Assembly (NCBI RefSeq): GCF_005144585.1
Contig: NZ_SSMQ01000002.1
Location: 186,001-250,000 of the forward strand
Origin: Polyangium fumosum
Lineage (GTDB): Bacteria > Myxococcota_A > Polyangia > Polyangiales > Polyangiaceae
Direction of reading: 5' to 3'
Length of the DNA stretch: 64,000 nucleotides
The translations under genes and the position numbers were made by a program. The number at the start of each line of letters is the position of its first letter. The first letter of the stretch is position 1. Below are positions 1,129 to 7,541 of the stretch, in pieces. The notes under the pieces were generated by a model. The model made no database searches. It saw nothing but the letters and a program-made list of their open reading frames with translations, and was not told where the DNA came from.

Positions 1129-1136
<8 letters not shown>
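450..1136 (-). CDS. hsdS: Type I restriction-modification specificity subunit, half-length (HsdS)
   Basis: A specificity subunit gives a type I methyltransferase its DNA target. The N-terminal part has the target-recognition-domain pattern SGGTPS...[14 protein letters not shown] (about residues 29-52), and the motif [17 protein letters not shown] followed by [10 protein letters not shown] marks the end of that domain and the start of the conserved helix. At 228 residues it holds only one such domain, whereas usual HsdS proteins of about 400-450 residues hold two, so it would have to act as a dimer or recognise a half-site. The start is the GTG at 1136, which overlaps the hsdM stop (GTGGCTGA), implying translational coupling. 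No hsdR lies nearby. Product family is secure; activity is unknown. Confidence 0.85.
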
Positions 1137-2709
<1,573 letters not shown>

Positions 2710-2712
2710 CGC

Positions 2713-5700
2713 TCAGACGCGCCCACGGGGCTGCTCCGTCGACGCAATCTGCAAAGGCCCCGGTCGATCGACGAGCCTGTGCATTCCGAGGCACGCCTGA
2801 TCCACCATGCCGAGGAGCGGCCGCGGCGCCACGCCGAGCAGGACCAATCCGATCGCGAGGGGCAACGCCGCCGCGAGCTCGCGCCTGTACATGGCGGGGA
2901 ACTTGCCGCCGAACGGCTCCAGGTACTTGCTCGTCTGCCACTCCCCGCGGGCCTCGCCAAAGAGAAGGTGCCCCATCGCGAAGATGTGCACCGCCGCGAG
3001 CGCCACGATTCCGATCGCCCCGAAGACGCCCATCGCCCGCTCCCGGGCGAACGCGCCCCAAAGCGCGAGCAGCGGCCCCCAAAAGCCCGCGAGCAGCGGC
3101 AATCCGAGGGACGCGAGCAGGCCGAGGCCAAAAAGCGTCGCGAAGAGCGGCATCTCCCGCGAGAGGCCACCGAATCGCCCGAGGTCCCGCGTCTGGACCC
3201 GCGATTCGAGGACCGACACGAGCACGAAGAGCAGGCCGAGGATCACGCCGTGTGTCGCCGCCACCACGACGCTCGCCTCGAATCCCTGCGGCGTGAGCGT
3301 TCCGATCCCGAGGAGCGCGATCCCTCCGTGTGCACCGGCGATCCGCGCCAAGAAGCGCTTGAGGTCGTCTTGCGCGATCGCCGCGAGCGCGGAGATCAGA
3401 ATGCCCGCCGCGCCGAGGATCGAGATCGTCGTCGCCGCCCAGCGCATGCCCTCCGGCAAGACGCCGACGTTGAGGCGCAACATGCCGTACACCCCCGACG
3501 AGAGCAGCACGCCCGAGAGAAGCACGCTCGTCGGCGCGTCGGATTCGGCATGCATGTCCGCGAGGTACCCGGGGAACGGGAACGCCGACATGCGGAGTGC
3601 GAAAGCGGCGAAGAGCGCGGTCCAGAGGACCTTCACGGCCGAAAAACCGCCAATGACAAGGCCCTTGTCGACCCAGGCCACACGCGCGAGCTCCGGAATC
3701 GCGGCCGAGCGGCGGACGGATTCGCCGGTCGCGAGGTACGTGGGATCGGCGTGTTGCCAGAGGAACCAGGACGCAGCGCAGAGGAGCGCGGCGCCGATCA
3801 GGGACGAGACGAGGACACGGGCCGCGGCGCGGCGCGGGCCCGGGCCGCCGCGGCGCGCGACGAGGAGGCTCGTGGGGAGGAGGCCGAGGAGCCAGAACGC
3901 GCAGAACAGGAAGAGGTCGAGCGAGACGAGGACGCCAAGCGAGGCCGTGAGGAAGACGCCGGCGAAGGCGTGGTAGGTGGCCGCGCGGTCGCGCAAGCCG
4001 GCGCTGGAGATCGAGGCGACGAAGGCGAGGAGGACGGCGGCCGCGACGAGCGCGAGGGAGATGCCGTCGACGCCGAGGAAGTATTCGACGCCGAGCGAAG
4101 GGAAGAGGCGGCCGCGCTCGAGGAGCTGGAAGCCGTCGTTGCCGTCGGCGGGGCTGAAGGCGCGGTCGAACCGGACGCAGAGCCAGGCGACGAAGGCGAG
4201 GAGCGAGCCGTGGACGAGGGCGCTCGTCGCGGCGAGGACACGGGGGCTGTCGCGGCGCGTGACGCGGAGGAGGAGCGCGAGGAGCGTGCCGAGGAGAGGG
4301 AAAAAGACGACGACGGAGAGCGGCGTGCGGCCGAGGAAGCCGAGGCCGAGCGGGCGTTCGGCGTGGATGGCGAGGGCGAGGGGGCGGCCGGGTTCGGCGC
4401 CGTCGCCGGCGCGGGCGTTCGATTCGACGAGGACCTGGCCGTAGAGCTCGCGGGCGCGGGCGGATTCGTACCGCCAGCGGATGCTGACGCGGCGCTCCTG
4501 GCCCGGCGGGATGCGCGTGGAGGCGCGCGGGCCTTCGACGGTGACGGTGATGCCGGGCGGCAGGCGTGGATCGTTCGCGGAAGAGCGGACGTCGACGCGC
4601 GAGAGCTCGATCGGGCCGGGGCCTTCGTTGCGGAGGAAAAACGCGCCCGTCATGTGCTCGCCGTCGGGCGCGAGGGAGAGCTCGACATGATCGCCGCCGA
4701 ACTCGGGGCGAAGGACAGCGCGGCCCGCAGGCTCGTCCGCGAAGGCAGGGGCGGCGAGGCCGAGGATCACGAGCGCGGCGAAGAGGGAGAAGAGGCGCTC
4801 GAAGAGGCGCGCGGGCAAGCCGAGGACGAGGTCGTCGATCGCGGAGACGAGCTTGGAGGCGCCGCGCGCGATCGTGGTGGCCGCCTCGAAGAGAACCTCA
4901 CCGAGCTTCGTGCCGGTGCCTTCGAGGAGGAGACGCGCGCCGGGGAAGGTCTTCGCAGGTCGCGTCTCGCCACGCTCGGTCGCGCGCAGGCAAGTCGCCG
5001 CACGCACGAGCGCATGGAGGGCGAGGAGGACGACAGCGAAGGCAGGCTCGTCGAGGCCCACCGCGACGAAGGCGAGGCCCGTGGCGGCGAGCGCGCCGTA
5101 CACGAGGCGATGGGGGTGTCGTGGGTCGAGCACGGCACGCAGCGCCGCGACCACGGCCGAGAACGCGCCGAAGATGGTGACGACGCCGGCAGCCATGGGG
5201 CTCAACGTGAAGAGGTCGGAGAGGCGCACGAGGAGGAGCGGCCCAGGCGCGAGCGCGAGGCCAAGGACAAGCGCGAGCGCAGGGGGCGAGAGAGACGCCG
5301 CGGCGCCCGGGAGCCAGCCGGAGAAGGGAAAGGTCGCGCTCGTCGCGGCGGCGCCCGCGAAGAGGAGGAGGCACGCGAGGGTGACGAGGCCGATCGAGCC
5401 GGCGCCGAGCTTGCCGAGGAGCGAGCGCGTGACGCTCTGGCGCCCCGCCTCGTCGCGGAGGACGAGCTGATCGTGGATCTCGCGAAACGCGACCGTGGGG
5501 CCGAGCGGCGTGATGCGCACTTCCTCGCCCGCGGGGACGACGAGGCCCTCGATCCAGGCGACCTCGAGGCCATCGCCGGTGACCGTGGCGCCGCCGCCCG
5601 GCGCGATGACGATCGAATGCGGGCCAGCCGCAATCTCCCGGCGCACGAAGGGCGCGACCGCGAAGGGCGCGGGGTTCTGCGCGAGCTGCGCGCGGTCGGA

Positions 5701-6543
5701 GATGCCAACGTACGCACGCGCGCCCGGGTGGCTCGTGAGCGTGAGGAAGCCGCGTTTCTCCGCGCGCTCGGCGACGATCTTCACGTCGCGCTCGCCGCGC
5801 GGGCGTTCGACGTCCTCGGCGAGCGCCGCTTCGGCGGGAATCCGACCCTCGGCATACACCGGGACGAATCGCGCGCGGAAATCCGCGAGGAAATGGCCCT
5901 CGTCGAGCCACGCGCCGCCGAGGCCCCAGAACAGGAAGGCGAGGCCGGAGACGGTCGCAGCGCCGCCGAGGCTCGCCACGACGCCCGCGCGCATGCCCGC
6001 GGACGCGGCAGGCTGCGAGCTCTTGCCCTGCACCACGAAGAGGCCCGTCGCGAGGACGACGGCGCCCCAGCCGAAGAGCCACACGATCGCGTCGGCCGCG
6101 AGCGCGACGAGCGAGAGGCCGGACGAAAAGAGCAACGCCGTCGCGGTGAACCGAATCGCGGCGCGATCGTCCTCGATGCGTTTCCTCGCGGCGACATGCA
6201 CGAGCGCGACGACGAGGAGGGCCGTGAGGAGGAAGCCCGCGCCGAGCGGGTCGAGGGCGAACGAGGCGTTCGCGTCGAGCGAGCCGATACGCACGAGGCG
6301 GAAGGCCACGTCGAAGAGCGCGCGGCGCGCAGGTTCGAGCGAGGCGAGGCGCGTGGTGTCGACGAGGGCGAGCCCGAGCGCGAGCAGCGTCGCGCCGAGG
6401 CCGAGGTGCGTCGCGCGGGATCGCCCCATCCGCGCGCCGAAGAGGGCCACGACGATCGCGGCGAGCAGAGGCACGAGCGGCACGAGGCCGAGCGGCACGA
6501 GGGGCGCCTCGACGGGCGTGAGCGGACCGGCATACGCGGGCAT
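2713..6543 (-). CDS. Fusion of NuoL-like and NuoM-like complex I membrane subunits with two inserted soluble domains
   Basis: A single 1276-residue membrane protein. Residues 20-220 and 385-520 resemble a divergent NuoL; residues 225-380 are a soluble insert with a PEGA-like beta stretch; residues 580-603 are a hydrophobic segment ending APAFADEP, followed by an extracytoplasmic Ig-like domain (about 605-730); residues 740-1276 resemble NuoM (YFLGVDGISL at 821-830, DDLKRFLA near 1059, TRDLGRFGGL near 1118). Residues needed for proton pumping in E. coli are changed: the TM5 Glu is Gly160 in the L part and Leu885 in the M part; the TM7 Lys is Thr401 and Arg984; the NuoM TM8 Lys is Ser1015. No other nuo gene is in the window. 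It may be a scaffold or non-pumping antiporter-like protein; this role is inference. Confidence 0.8.
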   Translation of the reverse strand: MPAYAGPLTPVEAPLVPLGLVPLVPLLAAIVVALFGARMGRSRATHLGLGATLLALGLALVDTTRLASLEPARRALFDVAFRLVRIGSLDANASFALDPLGAGFLLTALLVVALVHVAARKRIEDDRAAIRFTATALLFSSGLSLVALAADAIVWLFGWGAVVLATGLFVVQGKSSQPAASAGMRAGVVASLGGAATVSGLAFLFWGLGGAWLDEGHFLADFRARFVPVYAEGRIPAEAALAEDVERPRGERDVKIVAERAEKRGFLTLTSHPGARAYVGISDRAQLAQNPAPFAVAPFVRREIAAGPHSIVIAPGGGATVTGDGLEVAWIEGLVVPAGEEVRITPLGPTVAFREIHDQLVLRDEAGRQSVTRSLLGKLGAGSIGLVTLACLLLFAGAAATSATFPFSGWLPGAAASLSPPALALVLGLALAPGPLLLVRLSDLFTLSPMAAGVVTIFGAFSAVVAALRAVLDPRHPHRLVYGALAATGLAFVAVGLDEPAFAVVLLALHALVRAATCLRATERGETRPAKTFPGARLLLEGTGTKLGEVLFEAATTIARGASKLVSAIDDLVLGLPARLFERLFSLFAALVILGLAAPAFADEPAGRAVLRPEFGGDHVELSLAPDGEHMTGAFFLRNEGPGPIELSRVDVRSSANDPRLPPGITVTVEGPRASTRIPPGQERRVSIRWRYESARARELYGQVLVESNARAGDGAEPGRPLALAIHAERPLGLGFLGRTPLSVVVFFPLLGTLLALLLRVTRRDSPRVLAATSALVHGSLLAFVAWLCVRFDRAFSPADGNDGFQLLERGRLFPSLGVEYFLGVDGISLALVAAAVLLAFVASISSAGLRDRAATYHAFAGVFLTASLGVLVSLDLFLFCAFWLLGLLPTSLLVARRGGPGPRRAAARVLVSSLIGAALLCAASWFLWQHADPTYLATGESVRRSAAIPELARVAWVDKGLVIGGFSAVKVLWTALFAAFALRMSAFPFPGYLADMHAESDAPTSVLLSGVLLSSGVYGMLRLNVGVLPEGMRWAATTISILGAAGILISALAAIAQDDLKRFLARIAGAHGGIALLGIGTLTPQGFEASVVVAATHGVILGLLFVLVSVLESRVQTRDLGRFGGLSREMPLFATLFGLGLLASLGLPLLAGFWGPLLALWGAFARERAMGVFGAIGIVALAAVHIFAMGHLLFGEARGEWQTSKYLEPFGGKFPAMYRRELAAALPLAIGLVLLGVAPRPLLGMVDQACLGMHRLVDRPGPLQIASTEQPRGRV

Positions 6544-6668
6544 GGCTGTCCGGGAGAATGTCGCGCGCGTCGCAAGGTGCCAGCCCCGTTCGTCACGCCC
6601 CGCGATCGAGCGGGAAAGAGCAGGGCATCGTCAGGGCGAGAAACGGGCGGGCGTGTCACGCTCCGCGG

Positions 6669-7541
6669 ATGCAGACGGACACCGACGTCGCATTCCGGGG
6701 CGACGACGCGGCGAGCGAGCTCGCCAGGCTGCGCAAGGAGAACCGGCGCCTGCGCGAGGACCAGCGCCGCCTGGAGACGCTGGTCGAGGTGACGAACGAC
6801 TGGGTCTGGGAGATCGACGCGAACGGGATCTACACGTTCGTGAGCCCGCGAATCCGCGATTTTCTGGGCTACGAGCCGGAGGATGCGCTCGGAAAGTCGC
6901 CGTTCGACTTCATGCCGCCCGAGGAGGTGGCCCGCATGCGCGCCCTCTTCATCCCGATCGTGACGGCACGCGCGCCGTTCAAGGACGTGGAAAACGTCAA
7001 CGTGCACAAGGACGGGCGGCGCGTGGTGCTGGAGACGAGCGGCGTACCGCTCTTCGACGAGGCCGGCGGCTACTGCGGGTATCGCGGCGTGGACCGCGAC
7101 GTGACGATGCGCAAGGTGGCCGAGTCGGAGCGCGCGCGGATGCAGGAGGAGATCATCCGGGCGCAGGAGTCGACGCTGGAAGAGCTCGAAACGCCGCTCC
7201 TGCCCGTGGCCGAGGGCGTGCTCGTGATGCCGCTCATCGGCTCGGTGGACAAACGCCGCGCCGCGAGGATCGTCGACGCGCTGCTCGCCGCGGTGTCGAC
7301 GCGCGCCGCGACGTTCGCGATCATCGATCTGACAGGGCTACGCGCGGCCGATCACGCCGTGATGGGGCTGCTCTGCGAAGCGGTGCGCGGAGCCCGGCTG
7401 CTCGGCGCGGAGGTGCTCCTGACGGGCGTGCGGTCCGAGGTGGCCCGCACGATGGTGGAGCTCGAGCTGCACGGGGTCCGGACGCTGAGCACGCTGGCGC
7501 GGGGGATCACGTTTGCGCTGGGGGCGCAGAGGAGGCGCTGA
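6669..7541 (+). CDS. PAS-STAS sensor protein, RsbR/stressosome type
   Basis: The 290-residue protein has an N-terminal coiled coil (about 15-40), a PAS domain (about 41-150: TNDWVWEIDANGIYTFVSPR, GYRGVDRDVT) and a C-terminal STAS domain (about 165-285). The STAS part carries RsbR hallmarks: a helix-linker followed by VLVMPLIGSVDKRRA, the DLTG motif with Thr222, and LTGVRSEVARTMV with Thr252, matching the two phosphorylatable positions of RsbR. Stressosome proteins of this kind control a partner switch through a RsbT-like kinase; no such kinase is adjacent. The gene converges on a sigma factor gene, with 1 bp between the stops. The ATG at 6669 was chosen because upstream in-frame residues look non-coding; no clear ribosome binding site is visible. 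Confidence 0.85.
   Translation: MQTDTDVAFRGDDAASELARLRKENRRLREDQRRLETLVEVTNDWVWEIDANGIYTFVSPRIRDFLGYEPEDALGKSPFDFMPPEEVARMRALFIPIVTARAPFKDVENVNVHKDGRRVVLETSGVPLFDEAGGYCGYRGVDRDVTMRKVAESERARMQEEIIRAQESTLEELETPLLPVAEGVLVMPLIGSVDKRRAARIVDALLAAVSTRAATFAIIDLTGLRAADHAVMGLLCEAVRGARLLGAEVLLTGVRSEVARTMVELELHGVRTLSTLARGITFALGAQRRR

Follow-up and report, generated by a model that had tools for sequence, protein, structure and literature searches.

The subunits of respiratory complex I are usually treated as parts of a pump. In the structure of this enzyme NuoL and NuoM are neighbours that contact each other in a 1:1 ratio, the usual topology of these antiporter-like subunits is N-out, and the residues E144 and K234 of Escherichia coli NuoM are essential. 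The replacement E407K of E. coli NuoM, taken alone, is reported to bring pumping down to about three quarters (PMC9271201). The window analysed here, a stretch of 64,000 nucleotides from Polyangium fumosum (contig NZ_SSMQ01000002.1, positions 186,001 to 250,000), contains on its reverse strand a single open reading frame (ORF), designated LM, in which a NuoL-like half (NuoL') and a NuoM-like half (NuoM') are fused. That LM descends from a second complex I and has lost the normal pump path is well supported. Taken as a whole, it seems fairly probable that LM represents the remnant of this second enzyme, of which the membrane arm made of NuoH, NuoL and NuoM, stripped of electron input and of the proton path, has been retained as a periplasm-facing membrane scaffold, the scaffold role being the part that we infer. 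Three complex I subunits would in this way have survived the pump itself in dozens of genomes, without the pump residues.

An earlier note, written from the sequence of the window, had described one protein of 1276 residues made of a NuoL-like half, a soluble insert, an extracytoplasmic Ig-like domain and a NuoM-like half. This ORF is intact, and its parts (TM, transmembrane helix; aa, amino acid residues) are delimited as follows:

2713-6543, reverse strand: whole ORF of LM, the NuoL'-NuoM' fusion of 1276 aa, with an ATG start and 0 internal stops
5917-6501, reverse strand: NuoL-like TM1-6, aa 15-209, with G160 (codon 6064-6066) at the TM5 Glu position, from alignment and predicted structure
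5389-5916, reverse strand: soluble insert between TM6 and TM7, aa 210-385, presumably periplasmic
4984-5388, reverse strand: NuoL-like TM7-11, aa 386-520, with T401 (codon 5341-5343) at the TM7 Lys position
4735-4983, reverse strand: junction, aa 521-603, of low model confidence
4324-4734, reverse strand: Ig-like β-sandwich domain, aa 604-740, presumably periplasmic
2770-4323, reverse strand: NuoM-like membrane half, aa 741-1258, with L885 (3889-3891), R984 (3592-3594), S1015 (3499-3501) and P1157 (3073-3075) at the pump positions

From the N- to the C-terminus, LM consequently reads as NuoL TM1-11, a short NuoL remnant, a signal-peptide-like helix, the Ig-like sandwich and the NuoM fold. At the junction, TM12 and most of the remaining NuoL are deleted, and what persists of the NuoL C-terminus is joined to a helix that corresponds to the signal-peptide-like start of NuoM in the unfused relatives. 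Residues 742-1251 match the NuoM model TIGR01972 of NCBIfam at 3.6e-92 (309.6 bits, above the curated cut-off of 263.8), and the first half matches the NuoL model TIGR01974 at 4.7e-46 (157.9 bits, below the cut-off of 407.5). LM is not a full-length NuoL, since apart from that cut-off it lacks the TM12 region and most of what follows in NuoL (TM12-16 with the lateral helix in the full-length protein), E144, K229 and K399/D400; its second half has both the family match and the fold of NuoM, though not the pump charges E144, K234, K265 and E407. The insert (tested over 5401-5910) has no Pfam match, and the Ig-like domain has no significant one.

The fold is kept in both halves, as a comparison of predicted with solved structures confirms. 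The predictions (mean pLDDT 87 for the Ig-like domain plus NuoM half, 79 for the NuoL half) match the solved NuoM 8qby_M with a Foldseek TM-score of 0.92 on the target and, in the top rows of VIA, solved NuoL with Z of 41-43 and 1.7-2.0 Å over 356-360 residues. If the usual N-out topology holds, both the insert and the Ig-like domain would be periplasmic, and the loop charges agree with this orientation.

The residue correspondences were read from alignments with NuoL and NuoM of E. coli K-12. On the NuoL side, E144, K229, H254 and K342 have become G160, T401, V426 and R514, respectively, and K399/D400 fall in the stretch deleted from the TM12 region. On the NuoM side, L885, R984 and S1015 stand for E144, K234 and K265; together with G160 and T401 these are the five replacements called earlier, all correctly, to which P1157 in place of E407 adds a further loss. 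A shifted register that would restore the charges was rejected, as within the predicted helices that contain the key positions no Asp, Glu or Lys lies at a distance of at least four residues from the helix ends. The earlier view of a protein that keeps the fold, seems unable to pump in the usual way and carries periplasmic domains is thus supported by the lost charges and the fold match, the side on which the domains lie being derived from the topology and the agreeing loop charges.

Relatives of Polyangium still possess the enzyme from which LM is derived. Unfused and charge-complete nuoL-M-N genes stand in the neighbourhood typical of LM (parts of accA-Gfo-MPE-YihA-sigma) in G023, G008, G034, G148 and G169-G172; the set found there is nuoIJKLMN in G027, G020 and G019, and in G021 JKL(M) and MN are split between two contigs. 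In these intact relatives NuoL2 carries the insert, NuoM2 carries the Ig-like domain and every pump residue is kept, which means that the soluble domains, first seen as features of a lone fusion, are not new additions. The loci of the second complex I are dispersed in other Polyangiaceae (nuoABCD2, PDZ-NuoH, nuoIJK2 and nuoL-Ig-M-N2), the intact form comprising eleven subunit genes, with NuoH, NuoL and NuoM bearing an added PDZ domain, insert and Ig-like domain, respectively. In 11/11 intact loci fetched, the second NuoD lies within a nuoA-B-C-D group with NuoE/F/G not nearby, and I2-J2-K2 or J2-K2, missing from the LMN2 locus of G023 and G010, occur elsewhere in these two genomes. Because a single NuoF (PF10589) occurs in 6 of the 13 intact genomes, the second enzyme is probably devoid of its own NADH module, and it may borrow one from elsewhere. 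The search for the same architecture in other genomes, as the earlier note had proposed, recovered the fusion in all six Polyangium genomes and unfused forms in relatives: a search with an alignment of the Ig domain detected the Ig-like NuoM in 65 of the 183 genomes of the order, and only weak matches to this domain (at most 46.7 bits, in 32 genomes) among 377 genomes sampled from the phylum beyond it.

These searches yielded 65 NuoM2 rows from 64 genomes, G136 (a weak match at a contig end) being left out of the 65 matching genomes, and 62 rows were counted with all four key columns; the first contig of G021, G141 and G167 do not have the complete set of four, and the second contig of G021 was counted in place of the first. 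A nuoN gene follows in 22/62 rows, 21 of which carry the full E-K-K-E, while G131, with a diverged nuoN, keeps one charge. Among the 40 rows without nuoN, 36 keep none of the four charges, two keep one and two keep two, and the NuoN profile gave nothing significant within 4 kb downstream of these rows. At least 2 kb of downstream sequence was at hand for 40 of 41 lost-type rows, of which only that of G131 is significant for NuoN; NuoN elsewhere was sought in the own genome only.

The counts of NuoD and NuoJ cover 30 selected genomes (13 intact, 16 lost-type and G024, devoid of L-M), and that of NuoF covers 22. All 13 intact genomes contain a second NuoD and a second NuoJ; a single NuoD was found in 13 of the 16 lost-type genomes and a single NuoJ in 12 of them, G131 having a degenerate second NuoJ, and G024 has one of each. 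The supernumerary NuoDs of the lost-type genomes G018, G025 and G035 belong to other lineages (24-43% identity to NuoD2), and their extra NuoJs form a separate group, 34-43% identical to NuoJ2 rows that are 62-76% alike, and adjoin their own K-L-M-N or K-L, which assigns these copies to a third complex. Neither NuoD2 nor a sound NuoJ2 was found in the 16 lost-type genomes sampled. As read from the sequences, the charges disappear together with NuoN and the redox module, and do so in many genera.

Some genomes of this set deserve mention in their own right. The loci L261, L262, L263, L267 and L268 of G018, G025 and G035 appear to represent a third distinct complex I lineage, with its own NuoD and NuoJ and further subunits beside NuoJ. 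Contig C796 of G131 (L118) looks like an intermediate, with PDZ-NuoH, the degenerate NuoJ, K, L, M and N in one cluster and the NuoM charges Q-L-G-E. A second L-M fusion, with PDZ-NuoH upstream and 2/4 NuoM charges kept, occurs in G050, which belongs to another family (L057:8940-12704), and is probably an independent fusion.

The third surviving subunit, PDZ-NuoH, is encoded on contig C117 of the own genome. A search with this protein matches 49/50 genomes, canonical NuoH included, and 47 rows of PDZ-NuoH type were collected (15 intact, 29 lost-type and 3 without L-M), the PDZ domain being confirmed by Pfam in four of the proteins and the other rows being assigned by similarity. In 18 lost-type genomes of 10 genera PDZ-NuoH stands in the L-M neighbourhood, mostly directly upstream. 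At R51, E157, D213, E216, E218, E220, E228 and R291 (E. coli numbers), 15/15 intact rows agree with canonical NuoH. Within the 29 lost-type rows, E228 is kept in none (10 are gapped), D213 in 3 and E157 in 5; the own protein keeps E157, E216, E218 and R291 and loses D213, E220 and E228. Judged by these columns, the quinone-loop/E-channel region of the lost-type PDZ-NuoH is eroded. Proteins of 579-600 aa without Pfam match occur directly after PDZ-NuoH in the three genera tested (L235:7418-9187 on the reverse strand, L237:11812-13614 and L239:11232-12971), and are candidate partners.

Within Polyangium, the same single fused ORF occupies the same place in 5/5 other genomes (6/6 including the own one), with 76-94% identity. 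It is true that the halves are encoded separately in most relatives, as would be expected if an assembly error or a chance joining of separate genes had created the frame; however, the identical fusion is present in six independent assemblies, in one of them on two contigs, which refutes this explanation and makes it next to impossible. The median ratio of non-synonymous to synonymous substitutions (dN/dS) across the six genomes is 0.30 for LM and 0.22 for the M half, the medians of seven neighbour genes range from 0.07 to 0.31 (two of them compared in five genomes only), and PDZ-NuoH has a value of 0.083 against G004. LM is under purifying selection in Polyangium.

What selection has released is visible in the membrane core of NuoM, of which the identity is 0.84 in intact pairs (14) and 0.39 in lost-type pairs (44) at an rpoB identity of 0.88-0.97, compared with 0.59 and 0.45, respectively, for the Ig-like domain in the same range. 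Over 112 NuoM columns conserved in the intact rows and in both canonical NuoM, a general selective loss of charged residues was rejected, Polyangium keeping 13 of 20 charged versus 49 of 92 other columns (Fisher p 0.46). Charges lost from the Polyangium NuoM half are E144, K234 (to Arg), K265 and E407, plus K173 (to Arg), H241 and H367, and those kept include D84, R273, D310, R365 and E464; the path residues are lost, and several loop charges and most glycines and prolines are kept. What sets these losses apart is the identity of the charges, not charge loss in general. Taken with the drop in core identity, this pattern indicates that the constraint of energy conversion is gone and that the fold, the inferred topology and the periplasmic domain remain.

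The collapse of core identity in the lost-type genomes, the deletion of the last part of the NuoL half and the 118/183 genomes of the order without a match to the Ig-NuoM (not all of which need once have had it) would also suit a slowly decaying relic, in which the second complex I is dead and its L, M and H genes are simply still present. Such a relic is unlikely: the 41 lost-type rows that were counted retain an open NuoM frame of about 550-725 codons, and the dN/dS values quoted above for LM and PDZ-NuoH speak against it. In a simple neutral simulation of the LM gene, stop-free runs made up 33%, 14% and 4% at 10, 20 and 30% substitution, an argument that is weak for one lineage, not across many.

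How often the pump function disappeared was approached with rpoB, sought in 60 genomes and matched in 52, from which 50 rows, some of them partial, entered a tree of this one gene. Polyangium is placed, with good support, in a group of 10 rows that also contains six intact rows and G036, and the tree interleaves lost and intact rows, well supported branches forcing at least three changes of the intact label. Two results limit the case for repeated loss. The full NuoM gene tree, from which the first contig of G021 and G141 were left out, groups all lost rows together (98 in the SH-like approximate likelihood ratio test), a grouping that long branches could cause. In a reduced NuoM tree, a single clade of lost rows is 13.4 log-likelihood units worse yet not rejected (approximately unbiased test, p 0.099). 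In this reduced tree Polyangium comes out close to its neighbours in the species tree, and G015/G128/G131 join the IJKLMN group (89/86, not starred); a clade uniting Polyangium with those neighbours is not rejected either (p 0.419 in the same test). The reduced tree was built after the full tree had been seen, hence its p-values are not blind. Repeated loss of the pump function is likelier than a single ancient loss, without being proven.

The following course of events would account for LM. The forebears of Polyangium would have carried a second complex I beside the canonical one, and LM would be its fused and shortened NuoL-NuoM. In Polyangium and other lineages, the redox/quinone module (seen as the absence of NuoD2), NuoJ2 and NuoN2 would have been lost, with H, L and M staying in place, and the proton path of the remaining subunits would have decayed. 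In the absence of electron input, of NuoN and of a Lys/Glu path, pumping is not expected. The PDZ, insert and Ig-like domains could then present a periplasmic platform to a partner, on what would be a membrane-embedded scaffold in which the L-M fusion fixes the 1:1 contact of the two neighbours, and LM and PDZ-NuoH may still form one complex in Polyangium. A broader proposal, to which we give slightly less than an even chance, is that the H-L-M arm became, probably on more than one occasion, a machine without redox or pumping activity that works through its periplasmic domains; if true, the ancestral second complex I was bifunctional, and the loss of the enzyme laid its structural function bare.

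Several findings weigh against the scaffold interpretation. No partner protein or function has been identified for LM. In Polyangium, PDZ-NuoH and LM are not adjacent; PDZ-NuoH also survives in genomes devoid of L-M (G024, G029 and G033), and some NuoH charges stay in the lost-type rows (K274 in 28/29, E216 in 11/29). Finally, the Polyangium Ig domain, with a dN/dS of 0.31 against 0.22 for the NuoM membrane part, is no more conserved than the latter, from which it follows that the membrane part also matters.

The earlier note had left three options, of which the scaffold and the part of a distinct membrane complex fit these data; a different ion carrier finds little support, in two retained histidines and one Arg. 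A protein carrying another ion or solute, its path rebuilt through the two antiporter-like folds, would make use of the kept fold and of the half-channel histidines H322/H348 of NuoM (H1072 and H1098), kept in all six Polyangium, with R984 replacing K234. Yet only 6 of the 35 other lost-type rows keep H322 and only 5 keep H348, the replacements at the four positions differ between lineages and no new conserved polar path was seen, which leaves such a carrier very improbable.

The own genome contains other machineries to which LM could conceivably be attached. In agreement with the suggestion to look for nuo genes elsewhere, the canonical nuo genes were located on C99 and C124, besides the PDZ-NuoH on C117. 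One NuoD, 37-38% identical to NuoD2, and one NuoJ occur there, both inside the canonical clusters, and no NuoD2 or NuoJ2 was found in the own genome, the count covering NuoD and NuoJ. PF00361 proteins are confined to C44, C123, C124 and C132, with Mrp A/D on C44 and DabA (PF10070) on C132 together with NuoL/M-like proteins. LM was rejected as a DAB subunit (DabB), having no adjacent DabA and other genes called beside it, and as part of an Mrp antiporter, not being co-encoded with an MrpA/MrpD set. The presence of these systems nevertheless leaves room for LM, with PDZ-NuoH, as an accessory subunit that shapes or regulates one of them (canonical complex I, Mrp or DAB) or else the ATP synthase, the more so as 12 lost-type genomes, spread over 6 genera, have ATP synthase genes (gamma, alpha, delta, b) within the neighbourhood of L-M (L055, L060, L066, L131 and others, beyond NuoM'). 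These atp genes stand on the opposite strand, however, none of them was called near LM in Polyangium, and no shared operon with any of the four systems was seen; an accessory role is accordingly quite unlikely.

The C132 locus (L063:2294-14803) combines a DabA of 1311 aa, four NuoL/NuoM-like proteins and a SulP transporter; DAB systems are not known to have so many antiporter-like subunits. The own canonical NuoL (L062:11384-13996, reverse strand, 870 aa) has an extra C-terminal stretch of about 130 residues.

No other nuo gene occurs among the genes called near LM, as previously stated. A YihA gene, sigma genes and a gene for a PAS-STAS protein are its neighbours, and hsdM follows LM in 5/6 Polyangium. 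The PAS-STAS protein (window 6558-7541, forward strand) is divergent from LM in all six Polyangium. The HsdM-type N6 methyltransferase (window 1129-2709, reverse strand) starts 3 nt past the LM stop on the same strand, and G001 lacks it there; it possibly belongs to a restriction-modification system inserted at this place, and its presence in only five of the six genomes led to its rejection as a functional partner of LM.

A literature search at title/listing level found nothing on PDZ-NuoH, on a NuoL-NuoM fusion in myxobacteria or on NuoM without pump charges. The leftover subunits are still under selection where this was measured (Polyangium), and, with pump residues and redox partner lost and periplasm-facing domains retained, this suggests that the membrane arm of a respiratory enzyme has been reused for another job. 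The situation amounts to a natural experiment that can separate the residues of NuoH, NuoL and NuoM used for energy conversion from those that do no more than maintain the fold. A non-energetic role for the complex I membrane arm is indicated as well, one that can be tested in culturable myxobacteria. The case further serves as a warning, since the curated model TIGR01972 already labels LM as NADH-quinone oxidoreductase subunit M.

Compared with known systems, LM shares sequence families and fold with the NuoM/ND4 and NuoL/ND5 subunits of respiratory complex I, from which it differs by the fusion, the truncated L half, the vanished pump charges of NuoM and NuoL and the added Ig-like domain and insert; moreover, NuoN, NuoD and NuoJ of its own type were not found. 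Like LM, the DAB (DabA-DabB) and Mrp systems use NuoL/NuoM-like subunits outside complex I, but they come with their own partners, which in the own genome sit elsewhere (C132 and C44). The 11-subunit complex I-like enzymes without NuoEFG, as presented in PMC11238625, resemble the form of the intact relatives, with A-D, H, I-K and L-N and an NADH module that is not co-located; compared with the enzymes presented there, the relatives' form has dispersed loci and the PDZ, Ig and insert domains, and Polyangium keeps only H, L and M. A further likeness is offered by the unfused PDZ-NuoH, NuoL' and Ig-NuoM' of other Polyangiaceae (G015, G018, G025, G146 and others), which are the same three proteins with the same kind of losses, except that in those genomes H adjoins L-M and L and M are separate genes, whereas in Polyangium L and M are fused and H is located elsewhere.

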